IMG/VR virus record: IMGVR_UViG_3300043570_002208
Location: 1 to 46,969 of that record
Source of the DNA: a virus
DNA: 46,969 nt
Direction: 5' to 3' (one strand)
Shown here piece after piece: positions 1-44,885 of the stretch; position 1 is the stretch's first letter, and each line of letters starts with the position of its first letter. A program made the translations under genes and the position numbers. Below the pieces are notes generated by a model. It worked only from the letters and a program-made list of their open reading frames with translations, searched no databases and was not told the origin of the DNA.

Positions 1-326
1 CTAATATTATATTCTTTAGTTTCACCAATTTTTCTAGCAACCCATTTACAATCTCTAAGTTGATATTCCCAAGTTTTATTTCCTGTTGGGTCAGATAACC
101 ATCCTTGTGATACACTTCCACCACCTGAAGATGAGATAGGTGTTGATAATCTTCTTTCGTATTCATCATAATCACCAATATCAAAATTTTTAGATGTAAC
201 TAAATCAAAAAATTTTTTTCTTTGTTCTTTAGTTATCATATTTTTAGTGAATTCTTCAAGTGTACCAATATCAAATTTAGAGCTAACGATTGTATGTAAT
301 TTTAATAATTCGTCTTTATTTACCAT
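1..326 (-). CDS. hypothetical protein, 3' end cut by window edge
   Basis: An open frame starts at the ATG at 324-326 and runs off the left edge, giving about 108 residues. Its start overlaps the stop of the upstream gene (320-1216) by 7 nt, the usual coupling here. The visible part is polar, with a Ser/Gly stretch (SSSGGGSVSQGW) followed by a Trp/Lys-rich segment (TWEYQLRDCKWVARKIGE). No family is recognised. It probably belongs to the same late unit as the two genes upstream. Confidence 0.6.
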   Translation of the reverse strand, partial: MVNKDELLKLHTIVSSKFDIGTLEEFTKNMITKEQRKKFFDLVTSKNFDIGDYDEYERRLSTPISSSGGGSVSQGWLSDPTGNKTWEYQLRDCKWVARKIGETKEYNI

Positions 327-1216
327 ACTAATTTTTCTTTTGTTGGTGTAGTTTCCGGAGCTGTTTCAGGTTGAGTAGATTCTGGTGTTGTTGTTTCGGT
401 ACTAAATGGGTTTGGAAGATTAGATTGAATTACCTGACCTAATTGTGTTTTACGAAACCAATTAAGTGCTCCAATTATAGCTAAGATACCCACCGCTTTT
501 GCCGATAGTTTTGCCAATTCCCAAACACTAACTTGTCCACCCGATTTAGTAATAATACCTAACGATTTCATAAAATCATCTAAACCTTTTTGCAACATTT
601 GAGATTTTTGTTGTGACGCCAAATTTTTAGAACTATTTAATTTATTAATTACAGTTTGAATTTTAATTCCAAGGTCATTTAAATCATCAGTTAATTTTAA
701 TAATTCAGGTTGTGATAATTTTTGAACCCCCTTGTATATCTTATTAGATGCGTCATCTAAAAACGCCGCTTGTTCAGGAGTTATTTTTCTACCCATTTTC
801 CCAAACAATGCCTTTGCGTCATTAGACAAAACACCCGGTGTTATAGGTGGTTTTGGTGTTATAGAACTTCTAATTCCTTTCCAATCTTTTCCGGATTGTT
901 CCATTTTAGCAATCTTATCTAAAGCCCTTTTTTGTTTTAATGTGTCAAAAATCTCATTATTAACTCTATGTTTTAAATTTGAAATAAATAATTTACCTTT
1001 TGAACTATTAACAAATTTTGAAAAGGCGACTTTTTCCACCTCATCAATTATTTCATTTTTTAAAAATTTACTAAGGATTACTTTTTCTTCTGATTTAAGA
1101 ACCAACATTAATTCTTTAATTATCCCTGGTAAAGTAATTTCGTTAATTAATGACGTTTCATTTATTATCATCATAGATTTCATTCTATTTACTTCATTTA
1201 TTAATTCATTTTTCAT
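320..1216 (-). CDS. putative virion cargo protein with N-terminal targeting module and one TM segment
   Basis: 298 residues. The N-terminus (MKNELINEVNRMKSMMIINE, then TSLINEI) is the NRMKS-type targeting module shared in variant form by other proteins here, with I-N-E as a possible prohead-protease site. A hydrophobic stretch near residues 240-260 looks like one membrane segment and is followed by a Thr/Pro/Glu-rich tail. The middle is Lys-rich and probably helical. It lies 1 nt after the 1218-2390 gene and probably shares its late promoter. Function unknown; packaging in the head is inferred. Confidence 0.65.
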   Translation of the reverse strand: MKNELINEVNRMKSMMIINETSLINEITLPGIIKELMLVLKSEEKVILSKFLKNEIIDEVEKVAFSKFVNSSKGKLFISNLKHRVNNEIFDTLKQKRALDKIAKMEQSGKDWKGIRSSITPKPPITPGVLSNDAKALFGKMGRKITPEQAAFLDDASNKIYKGVQKLSQPELLKLTDDLNDLGIKIQTVINKLNSSKNLASQQKSQMLQKGLDDFMKSLGIITKSGGQVSVWELAKLSAKAVGILAIIGALNWFRKTQLGQVIQSNLPNPFSTETTTPESTQPETAPETTPTKEKLVW

Positions 1217-1217
1217 A

Positions 1218-2390
1218 TTATGTTAATTTAAATACTTTATTTTTTATACTGTCTTTAGCGTCTCCTTTGGATAATATCCATTTATTTGTTTTATCTAATT
1301 TTCTTTTAGCGTAAAACTCATCACCCACTTTTTTATAATCCCAAGTTTTATCGTAATCTGTTATTGGTGATAAACCACTTATTTTTTTAAAATCGTTGAG
1401 TGGGATTAACACAAACCCTTCGCTATTTGGTTTCCAAACATAATCAACACCGTTTATTTTAAAATTTTTAAAAGACCCATCATCATTTTTTACAACAGAA
1501 TATGTTTTAATTGTTTTGAATAAATTTGGGTTATCCCTTAATATTGATTTTTTATCAGTTTCATCGGTTCCGGATTCTAAATTATTAATAATTTCTTTAT
1601 CTTTTTGTTTAGTAAATTTATTAATTCCATATTCTATACCTTTTTTCAAAGTATAATCAACAGTCCCCGCAACACCAGCATTTTTAAGTCCTTGTTTTAT
1701 AGTTGCTTTTGGTGCGTCTTTCGCTAAAAAGTTAGAAACTGACTCACCAATACTTTCTAAAGTACTTATAATTTTTGGACCTATTTTTTTTAACCAAGTA
1801 TATCCGGTTTTTTCAATTAACCAAGTTAATGATGATTTTAAAAAATTAATTAATTTTGGAATGTAACTACTTAATTTAGTTAAATAAGGTGATATTTTAC
1901 CCCAAACTTTATTTGTTTTTAAGAAAGATAATAACCCTTCTATTGATGTAACACCAACAGCTTTAACATTTTTTAAAATTGGTGCTAACGCTCCTGAGGT
2001 AATTACACTAATAATGTCAAAAATAATATTTAACCACCCCCATTCTCCTTTAACAATTCCTTTATATAAATCATAAATTAATAATGAAGAATACGCTGTG
2101 ATTACTGCAACTGACCCAATACCTGTTGATGTTAAAAAAGCTTCTAATGCAACCATACCTGTCGATGTTAATGTCTCTCTAAATTTCTCCATAAACTCAT
2201 CAAAAGACATACTGTCCGATGGTTTATTATATTTTCTCATTAACGATTTATTGTAAGGTGTATCAAACTTCTCTTCCGGTTGTTCTAAAATAACATTTTC
2301 TGATAACGTTTTACCCATATCATAATTCATCATAAGAAGAACCCTATTTAAAGCGTCATTTCCTTCGGTAAGTGTATAAGTTGTATTCAT
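1218..2390 (-). CDS. putative virion cargo protein with hydrophobic core
   Basis: 390 residues. The first 37 residues contain RVLLMMNYDMGKTLSENVILEQ-like sequence, a form of the targeting module, and V-I-L-E-Q fits cleavage after Glu. Residues of about 85-140 are strongly hydrophobic with several Gly/Ala/Ile runs and could form two or three membrane helices. The C-terminal 100 residues are Lys-rich and soluble (IKTYSVVKNDDGSFKNFKING region). The start is supported by a TATTTAT box 5 nt upstream at 2396-2402. A pore-forming or membrane-inserting injected protein is possible, but no family is recognised. Confidence 0.65.
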   Translation of the reverse strand: MNTTYTLTEGNDALNRVLLMMNYDMGKTLSENVILEQPEEKFDTPYNKSLMRKYNKPSDSMSFDEFMEKFRETLTSTGMVALEAFLTSTGIGSVAVITAYSSLLIYDLYKGIVKGEWGWLNIIFDIISVITSGALAPILKNVKAVGVTSIEGLLSFLKTNKVWGKISPYLTKLSSYIPKLINFLKSSLTWLIEKTGYTWLKKIGPKIISTLESIGESVSNFLAKDAPKATIKQGLKNAGVAGTVDYTLKKGIEYGINKFTKQKDKEIINNLESGTDETDKKSILRDNPNLFKTIKTYSVVKNDDGSFKNFKINGVDYVWKPNSEGFVLIPLNDFKKISGLSPITDYDKTWDYKKVGDEFYAKRKLDKTNKWILSKGDAKDSIKNKVFKLT

Positions 2391-2395
2391 AATCT

Positions 2396-2402
2396 ATAAA
2401 TA
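2396..2402 (-). promoter_or_regulatory. late-type TATTTAT box, 5 nt before ATG of the 1218-2390 gene
   Basis: TATTTAT on the minus strand ends 5 nt before the ATG, the spacing seen repeatedly before genes with targeting modules. It is read as a phage late promoter core, by inference from recurrence. Confidence 0.55.
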
Positions 2403-2419
2403 TACGTAAATTAATTATT

Positions 2420-2659
2420 TTATTCAACAGGATTTGCGTGACCCCTGGCTAACCCGGTTCCCCACTTTTCACCTTTTAATCCCAACATATTTGCAGGACC
2501 TCTTGTTAATCCGGTTTCCCATTTTCTACCTCTAGTATTTAGATTGGCTCCCGCACCACCACCGGAAGCTGGAGCTGCGTCTTGTTCGTCCAACTCACCT
2601 TCATTTTTCGGTGTATATTTCTTCATTAGGGAAATTAAATAATCAACATCTGTTCTCAT
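2420..2659 (-). CDS. small protein with targeting-like N-terminus and a 13-residue repeat
   Basis: 79 residues. The N-terminus runs MRTDVDYLISLMKKY to ELDEQ, and LDEQ resembles the L-x-E cleavage sites of its neighbours. A Gly/Ala linker follows, then two copies of a motif of form [RK]G[RE]KW[EG]TGL[TA]RG[PH]AN. A TATTTAT box lies 5 nt upstream. Its position among cargo genes suggests a small virion protein. Function unknown. Confidence 0.6.
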   Translation of the reverse strand: MRTDVDYLISLMKKYTPKNEGELDEQDAAPASGGGAGANLNTRGRKWETGLTRGPANMLGLKGEKWGTGLARGHANPVE

Positions 2660-2664
2660 AATTT

Positions 2665-2671
2665 ATAAATA
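2665..2671 (-). promoter_or_regulatory. late-type TATTTAT box, 5 nt before ATG of the 2420-2659 gene
   Basis: TATTTAT on the minus strand ends 5 nt before the start codon. It lies next to the terminator at 2685-2713, so it begins a new transcription unit. Confidence 0.55.
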
Positions 2672-2684
2672 TCTTTTAAAAAGT

Positions 2685-2713
2685 AAAACCCCTCCGGTAA
2701 AGAGGGGTTTTTT
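2685..2713. terminator. GC-rich hairpin terminator
   Basis: Arms AAAACCCCTC (2685-2694) and GAGGGGTTTT (2702-2711) enclose a 7-nt loop, with flanking A and T runs. It ends the minus-strand operon 3940-2713. Confidence 0.8.
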
Positions 2714-3021: not shown

Positions 3022-3303
3022 TTAATCTTCTTTTTTCTTATCTGTAAAAGCATCGTGAAATTTTCCACGTCGTTTATAGATACCTCTTTTATCTACTTCA
3101 CCTCTCCATCCTAAATATTCTGATGTTGGGTTGAAATTTTTAAAATGTTTTGGGTGTCCTTTAACGTGGGGATGTAAATCGTGTAATTCATCATCTGACA
3201 TACCACCAAAATCTAATCTTTCTTCTTCCATTTCTTGTTCTTTAATAATACGTTTTACAATATTTATTAAATCACTTTCTTTTAACCTAACTATTTTTTT
3301 CAT
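3022..3303 (-). CDS. small protein with MKKIVRLxESDL targeting module
   Basis: 93 residues. The first 22 residues (MKKIVRLKESDLINIVKRI, then IKEQ) nearly match the start of the 22129-22365 protein, although the rest is unrelated. This marks a shared module ending at I-K-E-Q. The remainder is charged, with HPHVKGHPKHFKNF and a basic C-terminus. It lies 1 nt after the 3305-3940 gene. Probable virion protein; the function of the mature part is unknown. Confidence 0.65.
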   Translation of the reverse strand: MKKIVRLKESDLINIVKRIIKEQEMEEERLDFGGMSDDELHDLHPHVKGHPKHFKNFNPTSEYLGWRGEVDKRGIYKRRGKFHDAFTDKKKED

Positions 3304-4606: not shown

Positions 4607-5233
4607 ATGAAAATGAATATATTAATCACCGAATCCCAAGAAAGAATGATACTTAACGAATCAATTGGTCGTGAATTTGGTAATATTTTAAGAAAAAATA
4701 GTGATATTGGTAAGTTAATATCGACTCAGATTAAAGAAATTACTGGTGGGGATAAAGCCGCATTAATAACATTTGGTGCATCAATTGGTGGTCTAATGGG
4801 ACCGGTTGGTGATTTCCTTGAAGGAAAATATCCGTCTATGAATGATGGTGAGATTAGCTTATTACTTACCGGAGCAATCGCAACATTCTATTATAATAGT
4901 CCAAAGTTAATCAAAAAAATTAAAGATATTGTTAAAGAAAAAGGATTAGATTCAGAATTTGATGTAGCATTATCTAAAACTAAAGAATTAAATGAGATAT
5001 TTTTTGATTTTATGGAGAGTTTAAACATTACCTTATTTAAGGTGAGTAATGTGTTAGGATTTGCGTTTTTAATTCCATTATTACCGTATATTCATCAAAT
5101 TTCTGAAGGTAAATTATCAATTATGGATATTAATAAAATTATAACAATATTATTATCCTATGGTGTGATAACTATTTCAAGTTCAGCATTAAAAGAAATT
5201 ATGGTTAAATTAATTAAAAGATTTAGAGGTTAA
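4607..5233 (+). CDS. targeting-module protein with membrane segments
   Basis: 208 residues. The N-terminus MKMNILITESQERMILNES matches the [LI]-I-T-E-S-Q module. A Gly-rich, mildly hydrophobic stretch lies near residues 55-75. Two or three hydrophobic helices follow at about 145-200 (FKVSNVLGFAFLIPLLPYI and MDINKIITILLSYGVITISS), ending in a basic tail. It could be a membrane-active injected protein. It overlaps the convergent 5230-6012 gene by 4 nt. Confidence 0.6.
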   Translation: MKMNILITESQERMILNESIGREFGNILRKNSDIGKLISTQIKEITGGDKAALITFGASIGGLMGPVGDFLEGKYPSMNDGEISLLLTGAIATFYYNSPKLIKKIKDIVKEKGLDSEFDVALSKTKELNEIFFDFMESLNITLFKVSNVLGFAFLIPLLPYIHQISEGKLSIMDINKIITILLSYGVITISSSALKEIMVKLIKRFRG

Positions 5234-6012
5234 TAATCCCCCGAAATAAAATCACATAATTTACTTGAGAATGTTGAATGATTAACATAATTATAATCAT
5301 CAACTTCAATATCTCCAATACTTCTAATATGAGTGTAAGTATGTGTCCATAGTTCACAATCTTCTAAATTCATATACTTAGTAACTTCATCCCAAACAAT
5401 ACTATCTAAAGGTATTCTAAGGTCATCACTTTCAGTCATATATCCAACAATAGTTTCTGCAAGGTCTTGAGGTATGTTTTCTAAAGGTTCACCATTAACT
5501 AATGCTTGATGACAATAAACTGAAACATCTGTTGTTATTCCATCGTCTATATAAACATCTGAAATTTTATAAGTAATATTTAAGATTAGTTGTTTTTTTT
5601 CACCACCACACCAAAAATGACCTTTTATTTCTTTTGGTCCAATTTGTTGTATTTGTTCTGATATTTTTTTAATAAATGATTGAGGAATATTTCCACTAGA
5701 TTTATTTATTTTTTTACCTTCATAATAAATGTTATTAACATTAGTAAAAAGATTACTAAAATTAATACTCACCATCCTACAACCATCGTGTATAATATCT
5801 TTTGATTTACAAGTGAAATACTCCCACATATATGGAATATCCGGTTGTTTTGGGGTGATATCTAAATCATATTGGATTTCAGTACCGGATATCATACCTC
5901 TAGTCACATGATTAACCTCAACATTAATAAATTTAAATCTAAATTCATCAACTGTGTGAGTTAATTTAGTCATATATGATATAATACTTTTTATTCGAAT
6001 ATTATTTACCAT
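5230..6012 (-). CDS. hypothetical protein
   Basis: 260 residues from the ATG at 6010-6012, which overlaps the stop of the upstream metallopeptidase by 11 nt. That coupling decides the start, although the internal ATG at 5971-5973 (MTKLTHTVDEF) is also plausible. Beta-rich and soluble, with isolated Cys/His residues (FWCGGE, VYCHQALV, ELWTHTYTHI) but no clear metal site. It may work with the upstream HELEH protein. No family recognised. Confidence 0.55.
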   Translation of the reverse strand: MVNNIRIKSIISYMTKLTHTVDEFRFKFINVEVNHVTRGMISGTEIQYDLDITPKQPDIPYMWEYFTCKSKDIIHDGCRMVSINFSNLFTNVNNIYYEGKKINKSSGNIPQSFIKKISEQIQQIGPKEIKGHFWCGGEKKQLILNITYKISDVYIDDGITTDVSVYCHQALVNGEPLENIPQDLAETIVGYMTESDDLRIPLDSIVWDEVTKYMNLEDCELWTHTYTHIRSIGDIEVDDYNYVNHSTFSSKLCDFISGDY

Positions 6013-7027
6013 CAATAATAATTTTAATCACTTTTTCCATTTCATCGTCAGTTAATCCGTGAATGTCTTTATGGTCCTCAAACCAATCTCTAACCACATC
6101 ATTATACGGTAGTTTTCTTAATTTAGCAACACGTCTAAAACCTACTCTTTGTGCTGTTATTTCGTGTGGTTGAGTATAATACTCAAATGATTCGTTTGGT
6201 GATTCTTGATGAATACGACCATCACGATTATATTGAAATCCGTGTTCCAATTCGTGAGCAACAATATCGTTTAATTCTCCAATTATATTGTAAAAATTTC
6301 TTTTTAATGTTTTTGGATTATAAATAACAATTATCTCAATTACATCATCGGATGATGAATATTCCCCATTTATTTGATATCCATCCAACTCATCATCAAT
6401 TTGAAGGGTTAATTCGACCGAGTATTTAAAAGGTAAATTTGTAAAATGATATTCTTCACCATTTTCACCAGGGAAATAAAAAGACCCTGATTTACCTTCC
6501 TTTAACTTACGGACAATATTAGTTACAGTCGTTCTAATAGCCTCTTTACTCATTCTACTCATTTGCGTCTCTAATATTGGTTGTTTTATATTAGTAGCAA
6601 ATATATGTAAATTTTCTTTAATATTGTCAATTTTTTTTACGTCAAAATTTAAATCATCGATTGTTGTTCGTAAAATTTCACCAGTATTATTAAAATATTT
6701 TAAATAATCTTGAATTTCACGGTTTAATTTATCATAAAAAGGATAAAGTTGACTCTTATACATCCTTTCAAAATCTAAGTGTTTATGTTCTTCATCAAAA
6801 CCAAATATTAATGGACTAAACTTATCGTTAAATCCTATAATTGTAACTTTAACCTTTAAATAATCGTAATATTCCCCAACACTCATCATTTTTCTTTGAC
6901 CAGTAATTTGAAACTTATAATCAACATCAATATTAGGTCCCGATGAACCAATAATCACACCATAGTAATTAAAGGTCTTTTTAGTTACCACTTTATTTAT
7001 TAAATCTATTATCTTTTCACTTATCAT
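6002..7027 (-). CDS. putative zinc metallopeptidase (HELEH)
   Basis: 341 residues from the ATG at 7025-7027, chosen because a TATTTAT box lies exactly 4 nt upstream; the open frame extends further without a promoter. Residues 258-262 are H-E-L-E-H in a hydrophobic helix (DIVAHELEHGFQY). A downstream E-x-x-A (PHEITAQRVGF) could supply a third zinc ligand, as in gluzincin-type peptidases. The N-terminal 240 residues are of unknown fold. The MISEKIIDLINKV start is not a clear targeting module. Substrate unknown. Confidence 0.65.
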   Translation of the reverse strand: MISEKIIDLINKVVTKKTFNYYGVIIGSSGPNIDVDYKFQITGQRKMMSVGEYYDYLKVKVTIIGFNDKFSPLIFGFDEEHKHLDFERMYKSQLYPFYDKLNREIQDYLKYFNNTGEILRTTIDDLNFDVKKIDNIKENLHIFATNIKQPILETQMSRMSKEAIRTTVTNIVRKLKEGKSGSFYFPGENGEEYHFTNLPFKYSVELTLQIDDELDGYQINGEYSSSDDVIEIIVIYNPKTLKRNFYNIIGELNDIVAHELEHGFQYNRDGRIHQESPNESFEYYTQPHEITAQRVGFRRVAKLRKLPYNDVVRDWFEDHKDIHGLTDDEMEKVIKIIIDGK

Positions 7028-7031
7028 AATT

Positions 7032-7038
7032 ATAAATA
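7032..7038 (-). promoter_or_regulatory. late-type TATTTAT box, 4 nt before ATG of the HELEH peptidase gene
   Basis: The minus strand reads AGTATTTAT, then AATT, then ATG. The exact 4-nt spacing fixes the start at 7027. Confidence 0.6.
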
Positions 7039-7097
7039 CTTTTATATTCAAATAATTCCATTTATTAATATATTTATAATATAAAAACATTTCATTT

Positions 7098-7601
7098 ATG
7101 AAAAATATAGTGATTAACGAAAGAGAACTTAAACAATCAATTAGAAAACATTTGATTGAACAAGATTCGGAAAAAGAACAAGACCAAAAACCAAGATGTG
7201 TTGCCGGTAATATAATTCCTTTAGACACAATGATTGGTCCATCCGATAAATTTAATAACTACACATCAAGCGTTCTAAAACGTGATGGTGGTATTAACGG
7301 AATGGTTGATACTTTGGACGTATTGAGAACATTAAGATTACATAATGGTATTGAAGATAAAGGAGAACATTTGGCATATAACTTAATGAATCATATCAAT
7401 ACTTTTAGAAACAAAAATTATTTTGATGAAACAAATAATGAATGTCACAAAGCAATGGATAAAGTAATCGAATTATACAAAGAAAACGAACACGGGGAAG
7501 AACTTGTTAAAGATATTGAAAAAGTATTGGCACACAAAGACCCCTCATCAAGAGCGAAAGAATACCTTAAAAGATGTTTAATCTTAGTTAAGGAAAAATA
7601 A
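7098..7601 (+). CDS. targeting-module protein, unknown function
   Basis: 167 residues. The N-terminus MKNIVINERELKQSIRKHL then IEQ is a targeting module with L-I-E-Q at the expected site. The rest is helical and charged (MVDTLDVLRTLRLHNG, ECHKAMDKVIELYKENE), with no known motif. A TATTTAT box at 7071-7077 lies 20 nt upstream. The gene is followed by the hairpins at 7603-7686. Probable late virion protein. Confidence 0.6.
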   Translation: MKNIVINERELKQSIRKHLIEQDSEKEQDQKPRCVAGNIIPLDTMIGPSDKFNNYTSSVLKRDGGINGMVDTLDVLRTLRLHNGIEDKGEHLAYNLMNHINTFRNKNYFDETNNECHKAMDKVIELYKENEHGEELVKDIEKVLAHKDPSSRAKEYLKRCLILVKEK

Positions 7602-7718: not shown

Positions 7719-8849
7719 ATGAGAAAATTAATTATAACAGAAGAGGAAAAAACTCGAATTCTTGGATTACATCAATTTAAGAAATTATTAATAGAAGCTT
7801 CTGAGCATACAGAAAATCTATATAAATCTTGGTCCAATAAAAAAAGTGGTAACCCTGAATTAGCGTTATCGTTAATGAATGATTTTTTTAATTTACAAAA
7901 ACAATTACCAAAGAAAGATTTTACACAATATAAAACCGCTGAAGAATTAAAATCAGATATTGATAAATTAAAATCTCAACCTAAAAAACCTGAGGAAGAT
8001 GTTGATGTTATATATAAGGATAATAACTTATTAGTTGTTGCAACTAAAACATGGGAATCGGGTTGTAAATATGGTTCCGGAACCAAATGGTGTACGTCAT
8101 CTAAAGATGAATCGTCGTATTGGTCTAGACATAATTCATCAGGAACCGAATTTATTTGGATTACCAAAGATTTACCTCAAAATAACCCATTACATAAAGT
8201 ATCGTTACATTTTAAAGAAGACACATCTAACGGTAGAAAATCACATGATTGGTGTACGGCAATTAATGATTGTGGTTATGACGACCCATTTAAAAAAAAT
8301 AATATTGATATACCTAATTTTGATGAAATTTTTAACAAATGTTACGAATATCATTATAAGAGATTTGAGGTAAAAATTAAAGATAGAGAAGAAAAACGTA
8401 AAAAAATTTCCTCTCTACCGGTTTATATTCAATCAATAAATTATCTTAACCACTTAATTAACGATATTACCACCAATAATGATATATTAGATGACTTAAT
8501 TCAATCTATGATAAACCAATTTGAGATGGAAGATGATATGACAACACCATTATATGATTTAGATAATGAAAGTTACCAAACATTTGTTGATTTTATCTAT
8601 GATTCTTGTAAAGATTGGTTAACATCCGCCCAAGACCACACAATATTTAATAATTTAAATGATACATTAACAAAGTATGTTTTTGATATGATTAATAATG
8701 ACCCTTTTATTAATTTTGAGACAATTAAACATAAAATAGAGACAGAAATAAATGAAATGTTGTTTGAAGAAGTGTATACTCACGTAAGAGTTAATATACT
8801 TCGTAAATTACCGGATTATTTTGATTGGGATACAAGTCATTTAAGGTAA
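7719..8849 (+). CDS. targeting-module protein with GTKWCT-type domain
   Basis: 376 residues. The N-terminus MRKLIITEEEKTRILGLHQF, then KKLLIEA, is a targeting module with L-I-E-A at the expected site. Residues of about 95-190 hold KTWESGCKYGSGTKWCTSS, a spaced YW, and a second Trp-Cys (HDWCTAINDCGY). I know this arrangement from uncharacterised phage proteins but cannot name a function. The C-terminal half is helical and acidic. A TATTTAT box lies at 7696-7702. Packaging in the head is inferred. Confidence 0.65.
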   Translation: MRKLIITEEEKTRILGLHQFKKLLIEASEHTENLYKSWSNKKSGNPELALSLMNDFFNLQKQLPKKDFTQYKTAEELKSDIDKLKSQPKKPEEDVDVIYKDNNLLVVATKTWESGCKYGSGTKWCTSSKDESSYWSRHNSSGTEFIWITKDLPQNNPLHKVSLHFKEDTSNGRKSHDWCTAINDCGYDDPFKKNNIDIPNFDEIFNKCYEYHYKRFEVKIKDREEKRKKISSLPVYIQSINYLNHLINDITTNNDILDDLIQSMINQFEMEDDMTTPLYDLDNESYQTFVDFIYDSCKDWLTSAQDHTIFNNLNDTLTKYVFDMINNDPFINFETIKHKIETEINEMLFEEVYTHVRVNILRKLPDYFDWDTSHLR

Positions 8850-16860: not shown

Positions 16861-17220
16861 ATGAAATTATTTTTAGACGATAACCGAAAACCTTACGATG
16901 TATTTAGAAACACTATTGACCCAATTTATGAAAATAATAATGAATGGGTAATAGTTAAGGACTATTTAGAATTTATTGATACTATTTTAAAACACGGATT
17001 ACCTGAAGTAATATCGTTTGACCATGATTTATCTCAAAATCATTATTTACCGGAGAACCAAACAAATATTAATTATGATACCATAAAAGATAGAACCGGA
17101 TATGATGCGGGATTATGGTTAATAGGGTATTGTAGAATGAATTCTCTTGAGTTACCTAAAATTAAAGTTCATTCTGCTAATATTGAAGGTAAAAAAAATA
17201 TTGAGAGATTATTTTTCTGA
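16861..17220 (+). CDS. cREC-like cyclic-phosphate-processing receiver domain protein
   Basis: 119 residues from the ATG at 16861. An ATG 18 nt upstream lies in front of the promoter box and is excluded. The order MKLFLDDNRKPYD, then ISFDHDLSQNHY, GYDAGLWLIGYC and KIKVHSANIEGKKNIERL matches the cyclic-phosphate processing receiver family, proposed to act on RNA cyclic phosphate ends. The Asp-Asp after the first strand and the HSAN motif are intact. It overlaps the convergent 17209-17790 gene by 12 nt. Early, leaderless expression is likely. Confidence 0.7.
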   Translation: MKLFLDDNRKPYDVFRNTIDPIYENNNEWVIVKDYLEFIDTILKHGLPEVISFDHDLSQNHYLPENQTNINYDTIKDRTGYDAGLWLIGYCRMNSLELPKIKVHSANIEGKKNIERLFF

Positions 17221-17790
17221 AACAAATGCTCTTAACTTCACTTTGTTCCAATTTTTAAAATCCTCACCATTATCACCAAGTTTTAATATGGACATTGTTC
17301 TATGCCATCCTTCAACTATTTCATACTTACCTTGATTATCTTTAAGTACAATTATCGGTTCGTTTTTACCTGTTGAGATGGCTAGTTCTTTTTGTGTTTC
17401 CATTCTTTCTTTATCGTCCTTAACAAAATAAGCATCCACTTCACCAAATTCTCTTTCAATGAATGCGTTTATATTATTTTCAACAAAATCTTCAGGATTA
17501 ACATTAATTATCCGTAATTTCCAAGGACCTTTTAGATACTCATAAATCTTTTTACCTAAAAAAGGTATTGGGTCTCCATGATATTGTCCCATCACAGTTT
17601 TATAACTCTCTTCATTACCACATATAACATTTGTAACAAATTCCTTTAAGATATATTCCGGAGTATTTGGAAATTCTTTTTTAAATCTATTATAAAATGA
17701 TTTACAAACTGATGATGTTGGGTTAGATAAAGGAATTGATTGGATATCCTCTAATAATCTATATTGTTTTTCTGTTATTATTAATTTCAT
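17209..17790 (-). CDS. targeting-module protein with ParB-like nuclease domain
   Basis: 193 residues. The N-terminus MKLIITEKQYRLLEDIQ is a targeting module. The C-terminal half holds VDAYFVKDDKERM, then EPIIVLKDNQGKYEIVEG and WHRTMSILKL. This resembles the ParB/sulfiredoxin fold, with the EGWHRT segment in place of the E-G-x-H-R box. Such domains can bind DNA or nucleotides, or act as nucleases. It lies 1 nt after the tagged metallopeptidase gene. A head-delivered DNA- or nucleotide-acting protein is a reasonable inference. Confidence 0.6.
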   Translation of the reverse strand: MKLIITEKQYRLLEDIQSIPLSNPTSSVCKSFYNRFKKEFPNTPEYILKEFVTNVICGNEESYKTVMGQYHGDPIPFLGKKIYEYLKGPWKLRIINVNPEDFVENNINAFIEREFGEVDAYFVKDDKERMETQKELAISTGKNEPIIVLKDNQGKYEIVEGWHRTMSILKLGDNGEDFKNWNKVKLRAFVSEK

Positions 17791-17791
17791 A

Positions 17792-18250
17792 TTACATTCT
17801 TTCTTTTATATCGTCCAACATACTCTCATCAAACTCAACTCCGTGTCTTTCTTGGAAATGGTCTAATAATGTACGAACAGATTCGTAATATCCTTTATGT
17901 TGTAATAATAGGTAAGCACCTAAATCAGCTTCCAACTCATCTTTCGCATCTCTTGGACCATCGTGAGATAATAATACGTGAGTAACCTCGTGAGCTTCAA
18001 TAAATTTTAATATACTTTTAGCGTCTGGTTGTCCTTCCAATATTTGCCCATCAATAATAATTAAATCACTACCGGGAACCATAAACCCAAAACCATATTC
18101 CTCAAAGTATTCTTTAACTTGTTCATATAATGGGTCATCTTCAAATACAACAACAACCGTAACACCATCTAAGAATTCACTATTATATTCTATTTGGGTA
18201 TCCTCTTTTATTATTTTTTTATACTGAGATTCTGTAATAATTAATTTCAT
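17792..18250 (-). CDS. targeting-module zinc metallopeptidase (HEVTH)
   Basis: 152 residues from the ATG at 18248-18250, fixed by a TATTTAT box 4 nt upstream; the open frame runs on without support. The first 16 residues (MKLIITESQYKKIIKE) are a clear targeting module with I-K-E-D at the expected site. H87-E-V-T-H91 sits in FIEAHEVTHVLLSHDG, followed by KDELEADLGAYLLL with a candidate third ligand Glu. A compact gluzincin-like peptidase is likely. Substrate unknown. Confidence 0.7.
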   Translation of the reverse strand: MKLIITESQYKKIIKEDTQIEYNSEFLDGVTVVVVFEDDPLYEQVKEYFEEYGFGFMVPGSDLIIIDGQILEGQPDAKSILKFIEAHEVTHVLLSHDGPRDAKDELEADLGAYLLLQHKGYYESVRTLLDHFQERHGVEFDESMLDDIKERM

Positions 18251-18254
18251 ATTG

Positions 18255-18261
18255 ATAAATA
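18255..18261 (-). promoter_or_regulatory. late-type TATTTAT box, 4 nt before the HEVTH peptidase gene
   Basis: The minus strand reads AGTATTTAT, then CAAT, then ATG. It serves the peptidase and ParB-like pair. Confidence 0.6.
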
Positions 18262-18299
18262 CTTTAAATTTTCGTATCATTAGGCAAATATATAAAATT

Positions 18300-19031: not shown

Positions 19032-19469
19032 TTAATATTCTTCATCTTCGTCATCAAGACCTAATTTACTTAAATCAAAATCCCCAAAAGTATCGTCTTC
19101 AAAATCATCAGGGTTAGTTTCATCAACATCGTCGTATCCATAACCTTCTTCCATTTCTTCATCAAAATCACCAACTTCAACACCACCAAATTTAGTTTCG
19201 TGTGGTATATCTGTTAAATGGATGTCAAAACCTAATTCTTCTCCGTGACGATTTGGGGTAAAACCTATTCCGTGTTTGTGGGTTCCAACAATCTTATCAC
19301 TATCCATATGTTTCACTAATCTTTCAGGTAAACCACTTTCATCTATTTCAGTATCCAAATAATCGTCGGTAGTATAATCAAAATCTTGTTCTGAAATAAC
19401 TCTACCAGCCTTATACCCAAAAAGATATTTCATATTTGCAATATCTTCATTAATTAATTTCTTATTCAT
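19032..19469 (-). CDS. acidic targeting-module protein
   Basis: 145 residues. The N-terminus MNKKLINEDIANMKYLFGYK, then AGRVISEQ, is a targeting module with I-S-E-Q at the expected site. The mature part is very acidic and Asp-rich at the end (DLSKLGLDDEDEEY), with HKHGIGFTPNRHGEELGF in the middle. It lies 3 nt after the 19473-19748 gene in the endolysin operon. Likely virion protein of unknown role. Confidence 0.6.
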   Translation of the reverse strand: MNKKLINEDIANMKYLFGYKAGRVISEQDFDYTTDDYLDTEIDESGLPERLVKHMDSDKIVGTHKHGIGFTPNRHGEELGFDIHLTDIPHETKFGGVEVGDFDEEMEEGYGYDDVDETNPDDFEDDTFGDFDLSKLGLDDEDEEY

Positions 19470-22128: not shown

Positions 22129-22365
22129 ATGAAAAAAATAGTAAGATTAACCGAATCAGATTTAACCAACATTATTAGAAGAGTTATTTCTGAACAAGAC
22201 CATTATAAACCTGACCAATTATATAGACGGGAATCTATGATTAAAAGAATTGAAAGAGGTCCAAAATTTATTCATAAATATATCAAAACATTACCGCACT
22301 TAAAAAAAGAAGGTTCTGACGAAGTATGGACTAAAATACCACAAGTGGTTTGGCAAAATTTGTAA
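22129..22365 (+). CDS. small protein with MKKIVRLTESDL targeting module
   Basis: 78 residues. MKKIVRLTESDLTNIIRRV, then ISEQ, is almost the same as the start of the 3022-3303 protein, with I-S-E-Q at the cleavage position. The mature part of about 55 residues is basic (YRRESMIKRIERGPKFIHKY). Likely packaged with DNA. It is coupled to the 22367 gene by 1-nt spacing. Confidence 0.65.
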   Translation: MKKIVRLTESDLTNIIRRVISEQDHYKPDQLYRRESMIKRIERGPKFIHKYIKTLPHLKKEGSDEVWTKIPQVVWQNL

Positions 22366-22366: not shown

Positions 22367-22675
22367 ATGAAAATAATTATTACTGAAGACCAATATGAAA
22401 AAATTGGTAGATACGAAACCTGTCCAACTCAAGTAACATTTCACGTTTATAAACGAATTGTTGGCCAATGGAAACAAAGAACAAGATGTGTTAGTGATGA
22501 ATTTTATGATTTAATACAAAAATACCAAAGACATAAATTTGATGATGGGTATGAAATGGATGAAAAATTAAAAGAATTAATTCAAGAATACTATTATAAA
22601 ACGTATTATTTAACACCGGACGAATATACAATAGAATACGTCACTGGTAACACAATATCAATTAAAACAAAATAA
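22367..22675 (+). CDS. targeting-module protein, unknown function
   Basis: 102 residues. MKIIITEDQYEKIGRYE is a targeting module. The rest is Lys/Tyr-rich and mixed (VYKRIVGQWKQRTRC, then KLKELIQEYYYKTYYLTPDE). Shares the late promoter of the 22129 gene and ends at the terminator at 22671-22704. Function unknown. Confidence 0.6.
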   Translation: MKIIITEDQYEKIGRYETCPTQVTFHVYKRIVGQWKQRTRCVSDEFYDLIQKYQRHKFDDGYEMDEKLKELIQEYYYKTYYLTPDEYTIEYVTGNTISIKTK

Positions 22676-26433: not shown

Positions 26434-27036
26434 ATGTCTAAGAAAATTTTAATAACAGAAGAAGATAAAAACCACATTAAATTATTATATAATATTAATG
26501 AACAGGGGGCCGATGATATTTTTAAAGGATTAACCGATAAAATATCCAATATGTTAAAAACAGGCAAGTTTAATGATGATGACGATAACACTTCAAATAA
26601 CATAACAACAACTGATGACGATTTTTATAAATCAGTTTTAAAATGTTTAGGTGCTGAACCAACTAAAAATAATATGTTATTTATGTACGCTTGGAGACAA
26701 GCTGAAGGTGGTAAAGCAAAAAACAACCCATTCAATACTACTATGAAAATGCCTGGAGCAACAAATATTAGTAATACTTCCGTAGGTGTTAAAAATTATT
26801 CAACTCCGGAAGAAGGTATTGAAGCAACCTGTAAAACTCTTAAAAATGGTAGAGATAAATACGGATATTATAATATTATCGATGGACTAAAAAATGATGT
26901 AGGTTTATCTCAATTATCCGATGCAGTTATAAATTCAAAATGGGGTACTAAAGATTTATTACGTAAAGTAACTCAAGGATATGTTTCCGGTCATTCCCCA
27001 AAACCACACCCAATCAATAAATCAGAAATCGCTTAA
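26434..27036 (+). CDS. targeting-module lysozyme-like protein
   Basis: 200 residues. The N-terminus MSKKILITEEDKNHIKLLYN, then INEQ, is a targeting module with I-N-E-Q at the expected site. After an acidic linker, residues of about 85-190 contain FMYAWRQAEGGKAKNNPFNT and VGVKNYSTPEEGIEAT. This resembles lysozyme-like glycosidase domains with a catalytic Glu in QAEGG. A wall-cutting enzyme carried in the particle is likely and separate from the GH19 endolysin. Late box at 26410-26416. Confidence 0.65.
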   Translation: MSKKILITEEDKNHIKLLYNINEQGADDIFKGLTDKISNMLKTGKFNDDDDNTSNNITTTDDDFYKSVLKCLGAEPTKNNMLFMYAWRQAEGGKAKNNPFNTTMKMPGATNISNTSVGVKNYSTPEEGIEATCKTLKNGRDKYGYYNIIDGLKNDVGLSQLSDAVINSKWGTKDLLRKVTQGYVSGHSPKPHPINKSEIA

Positions 27037-39369: not shown

Positions 39370-39397
39370 AAAACCCCCAATTATTGTTGGGGGTTTT
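39370..39397. terminator. bidirectional hairpin terminator
   Basis: AAAACCCCCAA and TTGGGGGTTTT with a 6-nt loop, between the convergent genes 39025-39366 and 39381-40499. Confidence 0.9.
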
Positions 39398-40499
39398 CAT
39401 CTTTTATTAAGGAATATATTTTACTTAGTTTTTTCATCATCTTAAGACAAATGTTTCTTGTTTGATTAATTTCATATCTAAAGAATTTTTCATAATCAGT
39501 ACCAAATCTAGTTATTTTATTTAAATATTTATCAAAATACCTTTGTTTTGCACCTCTGAATCCAAACATATTTTCCATAAAGTCGTTAGTTAAAAAATCT
39601 TTCATTAATCCTCCTCTCCACTGTAATAGTGTTTTAAAATATTGTTGTAATGTTAAATCAACCATTTCATCGTCGGTTACATTATCCGGATAATCCATAT
39701 CATTATCATCAAAAGTTTGTTTTATTTGGGGGATAATTAATTTTAATTCTTCCCTCAACCCTTCATAAGTTAATTCGGAACCCTCTTTATACGCAACATA
39801 GACTCTGTGGTTTGTTATGAACTTATAAAAATCTTTCTTTGTAATCCCACTCTCTTCTAAGGCGGCATATAACTCAGTTGCTCTTACCAAGTTTTCTGTG
39901 GTGTGAGCAAAATACATATAATTTAACAATTTATTTAATGGGGGTATATTTCCGAACCTTCTTTGAGAACCAATATGATATTCAACTCTTTCAGGTGTTT
40001 TAACTATTGGGTTAACAGATTCATCATATGCGTGTTTTAGTTCGTGAGCCAAACTTGAAACCATAACAACTCTTTCTTTATTAAACTCATCAATAACGTC
40101 CTGAGTGGTTACACCATAATCAACGGCAAAAGTGATTGATAACACCACATTATTTATGTCTTGAGTTCTTTCATAATTAAATTTAGCGTTTATCTCAACC
40201 TTCCCGTGGTGGGTCATACCATTTACCAATACTTTAGGTTTTTTAACCCCATCAAAACTATAATCATTAATATCTTCAATGTTGAAGGATAATTTTATCT
40301 TCTTAAATTTATAATCGTTAATTTGGAAATCACCTTTTAATATAATTGTTTTTTTAAATTGAGTTTGTAAATCAGATGTTGGTTTAAGCTCCATCATCAT
40401 TTTGTCAAATAATTGTTGTGCAACTGAAACAATGTTAGTTGGAACACCTACGGCTTCATTCAATTTAGTATATTGAGATTCTTTAATTCTAATTTTCAT
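39381..40499 (-). CDS. targeting-module zinc metallopeptidase (HELKH)
   Basis: 372 residues. MKIRIKESQYTKLNEAVG is a targeting module with L-N-E-A at the expected site. H152-E-L-K-H156 lies in MVSSLAHELKHAYDE, and RATELYAALEESG about 60 residues later may give a third ligand. The first 140 residues are beta-rich; the last 120 are helical. A TATTTAT box lies 4 nt upstream at 40504. A head-delivered protease is likely by inference. Confidence 0.65.
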   Translation of the reverse strand: MKIRIKESQYTKLNEAVGVPTNIVSVAQQLFDKMMMELKPTSDLQTQFKKTIILKGDFQINDYKFKKIKLSFNIEDINDYSFDGVKKPKVLVNGMTHHGKVEINAKFNYERTQDINNVVLSITFAVDYGVTTQDVIDEFNKERVVMVSSLAHELKHAYDESVNPIVKTPERVEYHIGSQRRFGNIPPLNKLLNYMYFAHTTENLVRATELYAALEESGITKKDFYKFITNHRVYVAYKEGSELTYEGLREELKLIIPQIKQTFDDNDMDYPDNVTDDEMVDLTLQQYFKTLLQWRGGLMKDFLTNDFMENMFGFRGAKQRYFDKYLNKITRFGTDYEKFFRYEINQTRNICLKMMKKLSKIYSLIKDENPQQ

Positions 40500-40898: not shown

Positions 40899-41285
40899 CT
40901 ACTCTATTGTTTTGACAGGAACATGGAATTTATCCCAAAACCATTCAATAAATGGTTGTTTCCAATTATTACCGAAATACCCGTTCAAAGTTCTTAAAAT
41001 AACATCATCTTCAAAGTATAATATTGGTGATTTATCTTTTTTTTCTTGACAAAGTTTATCCGAATAACTTTCAGATTCTTCACTACCCCAATAATCTTCA
41101 CCATACCATCTAAATAAGGTATCGTCTTCATCATAATCACCTTGATAAAACTTTATTGCGTAATCCACTTCATTACCCCAATCATCAATACCATATTCCC
41201 AACCAATGTTATTGGTGTCGTATGTTTTGTTCAGGTAATCAATGACCGCCTGATTTAATTTACTCTCCGTTATTATTATTTTCAT
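40899..41285 (-). CDS. targeting-module acidic protein
   Basis: 128 residues from the ATG at 41283-41285, fixed by the box 4 nt upstream. MKIIITESKLNQAVIDYLNK is a targeting module. The mature part is acidic and Trp/Tyr-rich (NIGWEYGIDDWGNEVDY). The C-terminus FGNNWKQPFIEWFWDKFHVP recalls the WFExxYxLPV ends of the 44925 and 46300 proteins. Function unknown. Confidence 0.6.
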   Translation of the reverse strand: MKIIITESKLNQAVIDYLNKTYDTNNIGWEYGIDDWGNEVDYAIKFYQGDYDEDDTLFRWYGEDYWGSEESESYSDKLCQEKKDKSPILYFEDDVILRTLNGYFGNNWKQPFIEWFWDKFHVPVKTIE

Positions 41286-42061: not shown

Positions 42062-42358
42062 CTATTCTAATTTTTTTGTTATTTGTCGAGAACCTTTTTT
42101 ATCCAAATATTTTATAATACAATTATCCTCATTTATTATGGAACAATATGCAAATAACTTAGATACAAAATCTTCTAAAACCAAACTATCTTTACCGGGA
42201 ATTAATAATATAACTTTATAAGTTGTGCCATCGACAGACATTTGTTTAACATTTTTCAATATTATTTCAACATATCGTTTTTTATTATATCGAACAATTA
42301 CCGTTAAATCAGGATATAATATCTCAAAAACTTTTCTTACTATAACCAATCTCTTCAT
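42062..42358 (-). CDS. hypothetical protein
   Basis: 98 residues. Basic alpha/beta protein (MKRLVIVRKVFEILYPDLTV, then YVEIILKNVKQMSVDG). Divergent from the 42415 repeat gene. Function unknown. Confidence 0.5.
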   Translation of the reverse strand: MKRLVIVRKVFEILYPDLTVIVRYNKKRYVEIILKNVKQMSVDGTTYKVILLIPGKDSLVLEDFVSKLFAYCSIINEDNCIIKYLDKKGSRQITKKLE

Positions 42359-42379
42359 TTAAAAAATATAATTTATTAT

Positions 42380-42410
42380 TTGATGATAAGAAATAGTTTT
42401 ATTATCTTTG
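42380..42410 (+). promoter_or_regulatory. Bacteroidota-type promoter with leaderless start
   Basis: TTG (42380-42382), 20 nt, TATCTTTG (42403-42410), TTCT, ATG at 42415. Transcription is predicted to start on the A of the ATG. Confidence 0.7.
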
Positions 42411-42414
42411 TTCT

Positions 42415-43437
42415 ATGGAAAGAATTATAAATAAATTAATTAATGAATTTACTAAAGGGGTGGACACTTATACCCATAATGGTTCCACTTGGTTAATCTT
42501 TACTGAGTCCAAACAATGGATGATTGAACTAACTGAGAATAAAACTCTATGGTATAATTACAACTTCTTCAAAAGTATTTTTGCTTACGCTTCGTTGGAT
42601 TGCGTTCAGAACCAACACCTCATCACCAAATGGGTGGAAGATAATATTATAAATAAAGAGTTAACTTATGTTACACTCTTTAGAGATGCCCGGGATAGAA
42701 AACAACAATTTGAGGACACTCTTGAAAATGGTGTGAAAAAAACTAAAATGGCTCATATGAAAACGGATTGGTCGGTTGAGGATACTATTGAAAATGGGGT
42801 AAAGAACACCAATTATTGGGGTGATAAAAGAATCTTATCAGTTGATGATACTCTTGAAAATGGTGTGAAGGAAACCATTTTTGCCTTTGTAGGTGGTTCT
42901 ACTTTAGCTGAAGATGTCCTACAAAATGGTGTTAAAATAATTTCACCCTTACAATCTCGTGAATATACAGGAGACATTGATGAGGTTCTCGGAAATGGTG
43001 TAAAAACTTCTCACCCACGTCAATATGTAGGTGGAGATATAGTTGATAAAGTGATTGACAAGGGTGTAATAGAAACTCACGATGATGTATATCACCACAA
43101 AGGAAGAATTGCTGGTGTGATTAAAAATGGTGTTAAAGAAACAAAAACACCCGGTGAAGATGGTGACCTTGTTGGTGTTCTTGATTGGTTGGAAGAAAAT
43201 GAAACCAATAGTGTTCCCAAAATGATTGATGATGTGATTGAGAATGGTGTTAAAGAAACTGTGGCAGCCGGATATACCGACCCAAAAACCAATCTCATAT
43301 ATATTAAGTGGGGTCCTCAAATTGATGAGGTTATAGATGAAGGTGTTAAAATATCCAGAACTTATATTAGTGGTTCAAGACAAAAAGAAACAACTGAAAT
43401 CATAATTAAATATGGAACAAAAAACCCCACCGATTAG
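42415..43437 (+). CDS. 22-residue repeat protein (VEDTxENGVKxT)
   Basis: 340 residues. The head (1-75) reads MERIINKLINEFTKGVDTYT, then HNGSTWLIFTESKQWMIELT and ends HLITKWVEDNIIN. Units of form [VI]-[ED]-D-x-[LI]-E-N-G-V-K-x-T start at about 99, 121, 143, 165, 188, 210 and 232, i.e. 22 apart; later copies at about 271 and 303 are spaced more widely. The head, the WVED junction and the repeat consensus match the 32349-32954 protein, so the two are paralogs. Leaderless, host-type promoter. No known repeat family. Confidence 0.65.
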   Translation: MERIINKLINEFTKGVDTYTHNGSTWLIFTESKQWMIELTENKTLWYNYNFFKSIFAYASLDCVQNQHLITKWVEDNIINKELTYVTLFRDARDRKQQFEDTLENGVKKTKMAHMKTDWSVEDTIENGVKNTNYWGDKRILSVDDTLENGVKETIFAFVGGSTLAEDVLQNGVKIISPLQSREYTGDIDEVLGNGVKTSHPRQYVGGDIVDKVIDKGVIETHDDVYHHKGRIAGVIKNGVKETKTPGEDGDLVGVLDWLEENETNSVPKMIDDVIENGVKETVAAGYTDPKTNLIYIKWGPQIDEVIDEGVKISRTYISGSRQKETTEIIIKYGTKNPTD

Positions 43438-43450
43438 GATGGGGTTAATT
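43423..43450 (+). terminator. hairpin terminator
   Basis: AACCCC and GGGGTT enclose a 12-nt loop, followed by a T-rich run. It overlaps the end of the repeat gene. Confidence 0.7.
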
Positions 43451-43451
43451 T

Positions 43452-43568
43452 TTACATTTCTGATTTTAATCTTGAAAGAATTTCGTTGTTTTTATTCATT
43501 ATTTTTAATTTCTTAACAACATTCACTCTGTTTTTTTTAGGTTTCCCTATTTTTTTTGATTTAGACAT
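43452..43568 (-). CDS. 38-residue basic protein
   Basis: MSKSKKIGKPKKNRVNVVKK, then LKIMNKNNEILSRLKSEM. Very basic, half disordered and half helical. Could bind nucleic acid. No neighbour coupling. Moderate chance of being real. Confidence 0.4.
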   Translation of the reverse strand: MSKSKKIGKPKKNRVNVVKKLKIMNKNNEILSRLKSEM

Positions 43569-43595
43569 AATAATGATTTATATATAAGTATATTA

Positions 43596-43997
43596 TTATA
43601 ATTTTTTGTAATTATTAAAATGTATACCGGCTTTACCAAACGAAACACTATCTAAATCAACACTTAAATATTTTTTTAATTCTTCTTTCATCACCGGAAC
43701 AAACGCCCACAATAACGGATAACTAATCGCAACTTCATCCTTCAGATATTTTTCCTTATATTCATTACATACAACCCGGGAAACCGGAATTTCGGAATCA
43801 ATAACAACAACATAATCGTAACTATTTCTCCAACTATCTGAAAAATCCCAACGCTCCTCACCCTTATATAAATTAACAATCCTAACACTGAAATTATATT
43901 TCACATCAGAACAAGTCATTTTATTTATTAGTTTATTACCAAGTGTGTTCATATACTTATCAATAATTCTTATTGATATTTCGTCTTCTATATTCAT
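43596..43997 (-). CDS. hypothetical protein
   Basis: 133 residues from the ATG at 43995-43997; an earlier reading would overlap most of the previous gene. MNIEDEISIRIIDKYMNTLG, then DYVVVIDSEIPVSRVVCNEY and an aromatic middle. It follows the two basic tagged genes and probably shares their transcript. Function unknown. Confidence 0.5.
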   Translation of the reverse strand: MNIEDEISIRIIDKYMNTLGNKLINKMTCSDVKYNFSVRIVNLYKGEERWDFSDSWRNSYDYVVVIDSEIPVSRVVCNEYKEKYLKDEVAISYPLLWAFVPVMKEELKKYLSVDLDSVSFGKAGIHFNNYKKL

Positions 43998-44019
43998 TAT
44001 ATTTTCACAATTGTTTTTA

Positions 44020-44391
44020 CTACCACGTCCTGCAAGCCCAATATCTCGCTTTCCATCTTGGCCCCGGATTATCACAATTCATTCTTGCTCTAAACGATTT
44101 TCTTCTCGCTGGATTATTTTTCTTAATTACCATTCGTTTTCCGTGAGCAGATTTTCCACCAAAACCAAAATTTACCTTAACAACTTTTCCTTTGTCGTTC
44201 TTAACATACACTTTCGATTTTTTTACATCACCTTGCATAATTTTACCAAGTTGAACTTTACGTCCCTGATATTCAGCTTCATTTATTAAGTCACCAACAA
44301 CAAAGTCGGTCTCCTCAACTGAACCATAGAAACTATCGTCTAATTCATTGAATAGTTTGTTATATTGTGATTCTGATATTATTATTTTCAT
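44020..44391 (-). CDS. basic targeting-module protein
   Basis: 123 residues. MKIIISESQYNKLFNELDDS is a targeting module with L-F-N-E at the expected site. The C-terminus is very basic with Cys residues (NPARRKSFRARMNCDNPGPR, then WKARYWACRTW), a type I have seen in phage virion-associated proteins. It likely binds the packaged DNA. Overlaps the 44388 gene by ATGA. Confidence 0.65.
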   Translation of the reverse strand: MKIIISESQYNKLFNELDDSFYGSVEETDFVVGDLINEAEYQGRKVQLGKIMQGDVKKSKVYVKNDKGKVVKVNFGFGGKSAHGKRMVIKKNNPARRKSFRARMNCDNPGPRWKARYWACRTW

Positions 44392-44885
44392 TTTTTTTCG
44401 TAGTGTGTCATTGTTGGTTTATTTCCGGTTCCCACTTTTGGGTCTTTCTTTTCCGCTCTTCTCTTTTGTTGGGTCATAGATTTCTTCTCATCCTTATCAT
44501 ATGAGGAAGCCACCTTTGGTGTTTCAGATGAAACCTTTTTTGATGGACGACATTTTGGATATGACTTTCCGTCAGCATCCTTTCTTCCACAAGGTGGGTG
44601 TTTCCCATCAACTTTCTTACTCACATCAACCCATTTCTCTTTAAACCATCTTTTGAGGTCTTCATTAACAGATTCGTTTTTAGGTTTCTTTTTCCAACCA
44701 CCACCTTTTGATTTATATCGTTTGGCAGCAGCACCATTACAATACGCACTTGGACATACTTTGTATTTAGACCTTGCCCAAGATAAACATTGTGACCAAA
44801 GTGCCGGATTGGTTGGTTTATTCTCACCTTCGGTCAAATAATCCTTTAATAGTTCTTCTTGTTTTTCAGTTATAATAAGTTTCAT
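44388..44885 (-). CDS. basic targeting-module protein with DUF5872-like domain
   Basis: 165 residues. MKLIITEKQEELLKDYLTEG is a targeting module with L-T-E-G at the expected site. NPALWSQCLSWARSKYKVCP then SAYCNGAAAKRYKSKGGGWK is followed by DLKRWFKEKWVDVSKKVDGK and CGRKDADGKSYPKCRPSKKV. The last parts resemble DUF5872-type domains of phages and giant viruses. It is strongly basic and probably DNA-associated in the virion. TATTTAT box 4 nt upstream. Confidence 0.7.
   Translation of the reverse strand: MKLIITEKQEELLKDYLTEGENKPTNPALWSQCLSWARSKYKVCPSAYCNGAAAKRYKSKGGGWKKKPKNESVNEDLKRWFKEKWVDVSKKVDGKHPPCGRKDADGKSYPKCRPSKKVSSETPKVASSYDKDEKKSMTQQKRRAEKKDPKVGTGNKPTMTHYEKK

Follow-up and report, generated by a model that had tools for sequence, protein, structure and literature searches.

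The 46,969-base virus record IMGVR_UViG_3300043570_002208 (G+C 30%), analysed over its whole length and hereafter called the window, is a genome fragment in which short N-terminal sequences are shared by proteins whose remaining parts are unrelated. These leaders are very probably capsid-targeting propeptides, which would be removed after (I/L/V)-x-Glu by a prohead protease of the gp21 type. The modules, the boundary at which they end, the protease homologs in related records, a shared motif and the enrichment of a promoter element are directly visible in the sequence. A sequence-only reading of the window had drawn the analogy with phage T4; comparison with relatives supports its logic of leader, motif and gp21, while the cutting, the location in the head and above all the injection of these proteins are steps that we infer.

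Shared leaders and the residue at which they end

All 16 open reading frames (ORFs) listed by the sequence-only reading are present in the window, each with an N-terminus of the described kind, and their bodies are indeed unrelated, with no mutual BLASTP match at E<=0.01 past residue 40. The three leader forms that it distinguished exist as well, but the total is larger than three, as ITEEEKxRIxxLH, NLQENIxRIKxMMG, RFxxLLESxxGxVxPL and short LIRKVLKE-like types were also found. Its claim that the modules end in (I/L)-x-E was largely borne out: a later [ILVMF]xE lies at residues 10-45 in 14 of the 16 proteins, the exceptions being the ORFs that begin at 22367 and 40899.

A census that makes no use of the motif was taken of the window together with seven relatives from IMG/VR (G001, G002, G003, G005, G006, G007 and G014). 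Among proteins of at least 80 amino acids (aa), 272 of 1894 share a similar N-terminal 35-mer (E<=0.01) with at least three proteins with unrelated bodies, versus none for interior 35-mers, 10 for C-terminal ones and none for shuffled N-termini. Signal peptides were rejected as an explanation: 14 of the 272 look like them and were removed. The 258 leader proteins that are left, 31-45 per record in the seven relatives and 12 in the window (strict cut), make up 116 clusters of cargo, and reading them suggests that about four are false. Every one of these 12 window proteins (of 74) is on the list of the sequence-only reading; ORFs 320, 7098 and 39381 have two N-terminal partners each and are below the criterion, and ORF 22129, at 78 aa, is under the length cut and hence outside the count. 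Whole module proteins of 78 aa and 390 aa found no match when searched against named phages, and a literature search that mostly left subscription papers and bioRxiv preprints outside its reach returned no paper on these leader families.

In the RLTESDL type, conservation stops after a Glu. Of 260 such N-termini, all non-redundant and gathered with a loose search pattern that takes in some IITESQ ones, 185 have Glu and 7 have Asp as the boundary residue, and the residue after it is Gln in 84. Relative entropy is 2.0 at the Glu, 1.1 at the next residue and 0.03-0.18 at the following eleven; [ILVM]xE occurs near the boundary in 200 of the 260 and [ILVM]xD only in 10. Viewed from the cargo side, in five families other than the YMFFSNLEQM cargo treated below, Glu immediately precedes the cargo in 119 of 121 contexts (54/55, 34/34, 8/8, 14/15 and 9/9) and Asp in none, the first two fractions being those of the ORF 44020 cargo and of the second cargo piece of ORF 44388. 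P3 is T in 6 of the 119 Glu contexts and one of I, L, V, M and F in the other 113. Leaders end in L/I-x-E, with V, M and F also found at P3, and the Glu is not exchanged for Asp. The motif is also concentrated near the N-terminus: across 187 leader proteins with 120 aa or more, [ILVMF]xE has a density per 1000 residues of 49-134 at positions 6-30 and 21-23 beyond 30, compared with 22-30 throughout 1261 other proteins, whereas [ILVMF]xD shows no comparable rise (a slight one at 21-25).

The leaders and cargo pieces of the window are listed here, with a slash at each predicted cut.

1157..1216, minus strand: leader of ORF 320-1216, NRMKS type, ending MMIINE/T; alternative site LINE/I six residues further
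2283..2390, minus strand: leader of ORF 1218-2390, ending KTLSENVILE/Q
3238..3303, minus strand: leader of ORF 3022-3303, RLKESDL type, IIKE/Q
4607..4660, plus strand: leader of ORF 4607-5233, ITESQ type, ILNE/S
7098..7160, plus strand: leader of ORF 7098-7601, HLIE/Q
7719..7796, plus strand: leader of ORF 7719-8849, ITEEEK type, LLIE/A
17749..17790, minus strand: leader of ORF 17209-17790, ITEKQ type, RLLE/D (weak)
18203..18250, minus strand: leader of ORF 17792-18250 (inner Met as start), ITESQ type, IIKE/D; body with HEVTHVLLSH
19389..19469, minus strand: leader of ORF 19032-19469, VISE/Q
22129..22194, plus strand: leader of ORF 22129-22365, RLTESDL type, VISE/Q
22367..22387, plus strand: N-terminus of ORF 22367-22675, ITEDQ type, early ITE/D only
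26434..26502, plus strand: leader of ORF 26434-27036, ITEEDK type, NINE/Q
40455..40499, minus strand: leader of ORF 39381-40499, KESQY type, KLNE/A; body with HELKHAYDE
41265..41285, minus strand: N-terminus of ORF 40899-41285, ITESK type, early ITE/S only
44278..44391, minus strand: propeptide of ORF 44020-44391, DLINE/AEYQ, inner extra site FNE/L; cargo phrog_7595
44829..44885, minus strand: leader of ORF 44388-44885, DYLTE/G
44661..44828, minus strand: first of two cargo pieces in ORF 44388 (KVCPSAY stretch), encoded separately in HTVC023P and C72C1
44391..44660, minus strand: second cargo piece of ORF 44388, after SVNE/D; DUF5872

For ORF 22129, the match stops at query residue 23-25 in 28 of the 78 loci listed. 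The better supported cut in ORF 44020 is INE/AEYQ after residue 38, not FNE/L after 16, and in ORF 44388 the DUF5872 match (PF19197, 4.2e-18) covers residues 24-147, that is, both cargo pieces.

Protease, head genes and leaderless homologs

The gp21-like protease to which the sequence-only reading pointed was searched for in the window, a fragment, and none was found there, but gp21, recognized as Peptidase_S77 (PF03420), was found in 23 of the 26 large related records. It occurs in 12 of 20 leader-bearing records, namely in 12/12 of those of at least 126 kb and 0/8 of the shorter ones; of 14 additional records of at least 126 kb that were fetched by cargo, 11 have it. In two of the records that lack it (G021 and G024), neither Gp23 nor a T4-type portal was found, and the third (G035) ends about 1.5 kb past Gp23; G022, one of the 11, has the protease together with a 68% match to window ORF 5230. 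In 13 large control records fetched by the window's thymidylate synthase, gp21 was found in 4 (23/26 versus 4/13, P=0.0005). The His, Ser and Asp at T4 columns 85, 140 and 168, which we take to be the catalytic residues of gp21, are identical in all seven aligned homologs, and the T4 gp21 structure 5jbl is the sole PDB match of the protease at E<=0.1.

The motif recurs where a head protease would be expected to act. Although the window itself holds no major capsid protein, the major capsid proteins of six of six records have INE/A or INE/S aligned to the T4 gp23 cleavage site LTE65/A66, and that of Flavobacterium phage immuto has VSE/A at the same column. Pfam confirmed the terminase in G005 and the T4-type portal, Peptidase_S77, Gp23 and tail sheath in G001; the tail tube match is under the Pfam cut-off, and the scaffold gene was labelled from its position.

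Homologs of the cargo in phages outside the T4 type start where the leaders are predicted to be cut. Those of the ORF 44020 cargo in Kolga, Aegir and CRP-902 start M-AKYQG or M-ATYKG, which corresponds to INE/AEYQG in the window, and those of the ORF 44388 cargo in HTVC023P and P-SCSP2 start M-SLKKWF or M-SLRRWF, corresponding to VNE/DLKRWF. Peptidase_S77 was not found in the records of these five phages or of C72C1. In HTVC008M and C48C1, LEE and LTE stand directly before the cargo shared with the window, and both have Peptidase_S77, as do Sf-CH8, immuto and T4.

The two cargo pieces of ORF 44388 are separate adjacent genes in HTVC023P and C72C1. At 44 of 80 loci (30 of 59 distinct) the counterparts of ORFs 44388 and 44020 are fused, their domains being joined by a leader-like stretch, and such fused ORFs have the form expected of a processed polyprotein.

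Leaders are exchanged while the cut motif is kept. Among the best 80 of 593 relatives of the cargo that starts YMFFSNLEQM there are 53 distinct N-termini of several leader types, and [ILVMF]xE lies 3-14 residues ahead of the cargo in 52 of the 53; three are clipped by contig ends, the single one without a site among them. With its leader, this cargo is encoded no more than 7.5 kb from gp21 in 5 of the 6 records listed. The G003 ortholog of ORF 17209 has MRGLIKKVLKE in place of the window's ITEKQ leader. In L362, conversely, the leader of ORF 1218 is kept (69% over 35 residues) ahead of a different body. Judged from these alignments, the leader is exchangeable with the cargo and cut motif kept, and the cargo is exchangeable with the leader kept. 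The window locus 320-2390 is itself variable: in L360 the leader-bearing pair has diverged (29-30% identity over part of the length for the counterparts of ORFs 320 and 1218), although three neighbouring genes on one side are 100% identical, those on the other side standing at 58%.

An upstream element is enriched before the leader genes. Among octamers, ATATTTAT and TATTTATA show the strongest enrichment ahead of ORFs in general (about 15-fold); the second is, as we assume, the T4 late element in reverse complement, and the T4 late promoter is taken here as TATAAATA. TATTTAT lies within 50 bases upstream of 147 of 258 leader genes versus 382 of 1633 others (P=4e-26), and in G001 it precedes the terminase, portal, gp21, scaffold, sheath and tube genes. 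Its distance to the ATG has one peak at 4-6 bases and another at 13-17, and the nearer peak would mean nearly leaderless mRNAs. TAnnTTTG, presumably the Bacteroidota -7 element, is scarcer before leader genes (12/258 versus 181/1633). This host-like element and the kinship to immuto suggest a Bacteroidota host for the window.

Cargo and competing explanations

In the sequence of events that we propose, the tagged proteins would be made largely from the promoter type common to head and tail genes, and the N-terminal leader would dock each of them on the prohead core (scaffold). The gp21-type protease inside the prohead would then cut after (I/L/V)-x-Glu, as expected for the major capsid protein, and the freed cargo would remain in the head alongside the DNA. 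Part of it would probably enter the next host cell.

A number of observations weigh against this scheme. Docking on the core, the cut, the location in the head and injection are all steps that we infer, and no gp21 was found in the window itself. Within the window alone the presence of a site is weak evidence for a cleavage module (14/16 versus 44/73 other ORFs of at least 60 aa; one-sided Fisher P=0.03); ORFs 22367 and 40899 have an early I-T-E and no later [ILVMF]xE. A later site is frequently absent from IITESQ-type leaders, and in 50 of the 260 RLTESDL-type N-termini, under their loose pattern, the expected position shows no [ILVM]xE and no [ILVM]xD. A pooled test of whether similarity ends within three residues of a site gave a modest signal (0.375 versus 0.182 shuffled), as did an automatic boundary test on 18 ortholog pairs (0.515 versus 0.362), and family-wise tests were therefore used. 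Counts are of records and contexts, many of them kin by descent. The C72C1 homolog starts about five residues ahead of the predicted cut. The thymidylate synthase control is weak because at least 6 of its 13 records look like copies of one phage and most have an LTESDL-coding pattern. G047 (L426), at 214 kb, has nine LTESDL-coding matches with no gp21, no Gp23 and no T4-type portal found, and may be either a fragment or a phage with a different head. In G001, TATTTAT is absent ahead of gp23 and about as frequent in the structural regions (17/61) as at 180-240 kb (19/69); as it is not restricted to structural regions, late timing is a supposition.

The cargo bears on what would happen after packaging. 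A Pfam scan of 109 proteins (106 of the 116 cluster representatives and three window proteins) found lysozyme domains in two, peptidoglycan-binding domains in three, and M23, VanY, ART-PolyVal, Acb1, PPK2 and DUF5872 in one each; there were 16 families overall, and most of the 109 had no match. Two lysozymes, the M23, two peptidoglycan-binding proteins, the PPK2, the Acb1 and the ART-PolyVal were located and read, and epimerase and DAO matches presumably belong to false leaders. The lysozyme and M23 cargo is over the Pfam cut-off, the Acb1-like (anti-CBASS) match barely so (28.1 versus 27 bits, Pfam alone) and ART-PolyVal under it (27.4 versus 31.2 bits). T4 57B, which we take to be Acb1, found nothing as a phmmer query against the eight records. 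For ten module proteins of the window, DUF5872 alone exceeded the curated Pfam cut-off, and PHROGs gave phrog_7595 for ORF 44020 (6.5e-9), phrog_23735 for ORF 44388 (8.3e-5) and weak matches for the rest. A single-sequence structure prediction for ORF 7719 was poor (mean pLDDT 48.5) and was not used. DUF5872 has also been listed for the genome of a giant algal virus (PMC12085832, excerpt).

The most serious alternative, though on balance an unlikely one, accepts that the tags target the capsid and are cut, and holds that the cargo is structural or DNA-condensing and not injected. Small Lys- and Arg-rich cargo (DUF5872, SPAQQAA, phrog_7595) would suit such a role, as would the position of the DUF5872-type gene between the scaffold and major capsid protein genes in P-SCSP2 and two small ORFs away from the major capsid protein gene in G006. 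Effector-like cargo speaks against it, namely Acb1, the lysozymes and M23 over the Pfam cut-off and ART-PolyVal below it. T4 offers a precedent that makes effector-like cargo plausible as injected protein: restriction enzymes are the target of IPI, and RNA polymerase is modified by Alt, itself a packaged and injected protein (PMC5512222, excerpt).

Far less probable is that the leaders route proteins elsewhere in the infected cell, to the membrane or a replication centre, the Glu being a mere helix end. The leader sequences are helix-like and some cargo, such as PPK2, does not resemble virion protein, yet against this reading stand the failure of Asp to replace Glu (185 versus 7; 119 versus 0), the identical motif at the cleavage column of the major capsid protein, leaderless homologs that begin exactly at the predicted cut and the proximity of leader-bearing YMFFSNLEQM cargo to gp21. 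The idea that what the 5' ends have in common is a cassette in the DNA or mRNA (a promoter, translation start or recombination site), with the peptide as a by-product, can draw on the TATTTAT immediately upstream, on the exchange of N-termini and on a somewhat lower leader codon entropy for Val, Glu and Lys, but it is very improbable and was rejected on codon entropy, which is within 0.12 bits of background for Leu, Arg, Ser, Thr and Ile; moreover, conservation tracks residues and ends after Glu, and leader-like stretches occur within fused ORFs too.

Capsid-targeting propeptides remain the preferred explanation, and a wider picture built on them, which we offer tentatively as falling a little short of probable, is that large T4-like phages, as an entire clade whose hosts are probably Bacteroidota, may share a general code for loading the head, in which several interchangeable leader families, each fitted to its lineage's core, serve to load at least 30 cargo proteins plus cut-up polyproteins per virion. 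These would form a pre-made, fast-changing counter-defence kit (anti-CBASS enzyme, ADP-ribosyltransferase, wall hydrolases) entering the host with the DNA. A trait of T4 would become an address label readable from sequence, listing candidates for riding in the head (more than 100 cargo clusters in eight records), and the label would open to testing a source of proteins that act early, against defence or in host takeover. The leaders may also serve as natural tags for loading proteins into phage heads. A cultured phage with matching signs exists in immuto, the obvious test system.

Relation to known phages

On the points tested, sequence comparison indicates that the system follows the T4 pattern, with differences in leader sequences, number, variety and fused cargo. 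Like IPI, IPII, IPIII and Alt of T4, the proteins have a short N-terminal propeptide ahead of unrelated mature parts and an L/I-x-E site, in company with gp21 and a gp23-type head; by eye only, ITE/A is common to leaders of the window or its relatives and the ipI capsid-targeting sequence (CTS). T4 CTS peptides have 10-19 residues, a Glu-to-Asp change inhibits their processing, and a review already proposes that T4-like phages can take along cargo of various kinds by means of the CTS (PMC9026906, excerpt). In contrast to T4, the leaders here are of other sequence, several families occur per genome, the cargo is partly in fused ORFs, and there are 31-45 tagged proteins per record (window excepted) as against four named for T4 in the same excerpt.

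Giant phages of the phiKZ kind likewise cut many head proteins after Glu, with 19 processed proteins in 201phi2-1 (PMC9026906, excerpt). The phiKZ motif, however, is S/A-x-E (same excerpt), a pattern to which the leaders here do not conform, and in SPN3US the propeptides are mostly long, two of eight N-terminal ones being short and the others 111-254 residues (PMC10052503, excerpt). Shared swappable leader families are not mentioned for these giants in the excerpts of either source. The Kyanoviridae C48C1 and HTVC008M resemble the window in that one of the cargo families found here follows directly after L-x-E and gp21 is present; they differ in their leaders, MKKFKQY in C48C1 and another, longer N-terminus in HTVC008M, neither of which belongs to the families found here.

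Immuto has leader families of its own, a FDLKKFLVENKLT-like one in four proteins and KKQILSEQFxRMQxLAGIITE in two (150 of 160 kb read). At 102-119 kb of its record (NC_055915), several leader-type genes are among those just upstream of the terminase and portal. In the window, HExxH metalloprotease-like motifs occur in ORFs 39381-40499, 17792-18280 and 6002-7090, two of the three with leaders, and ORF 42415-43437 has many ENGVKET-like repeats and LINE/F close to its N-terminus.

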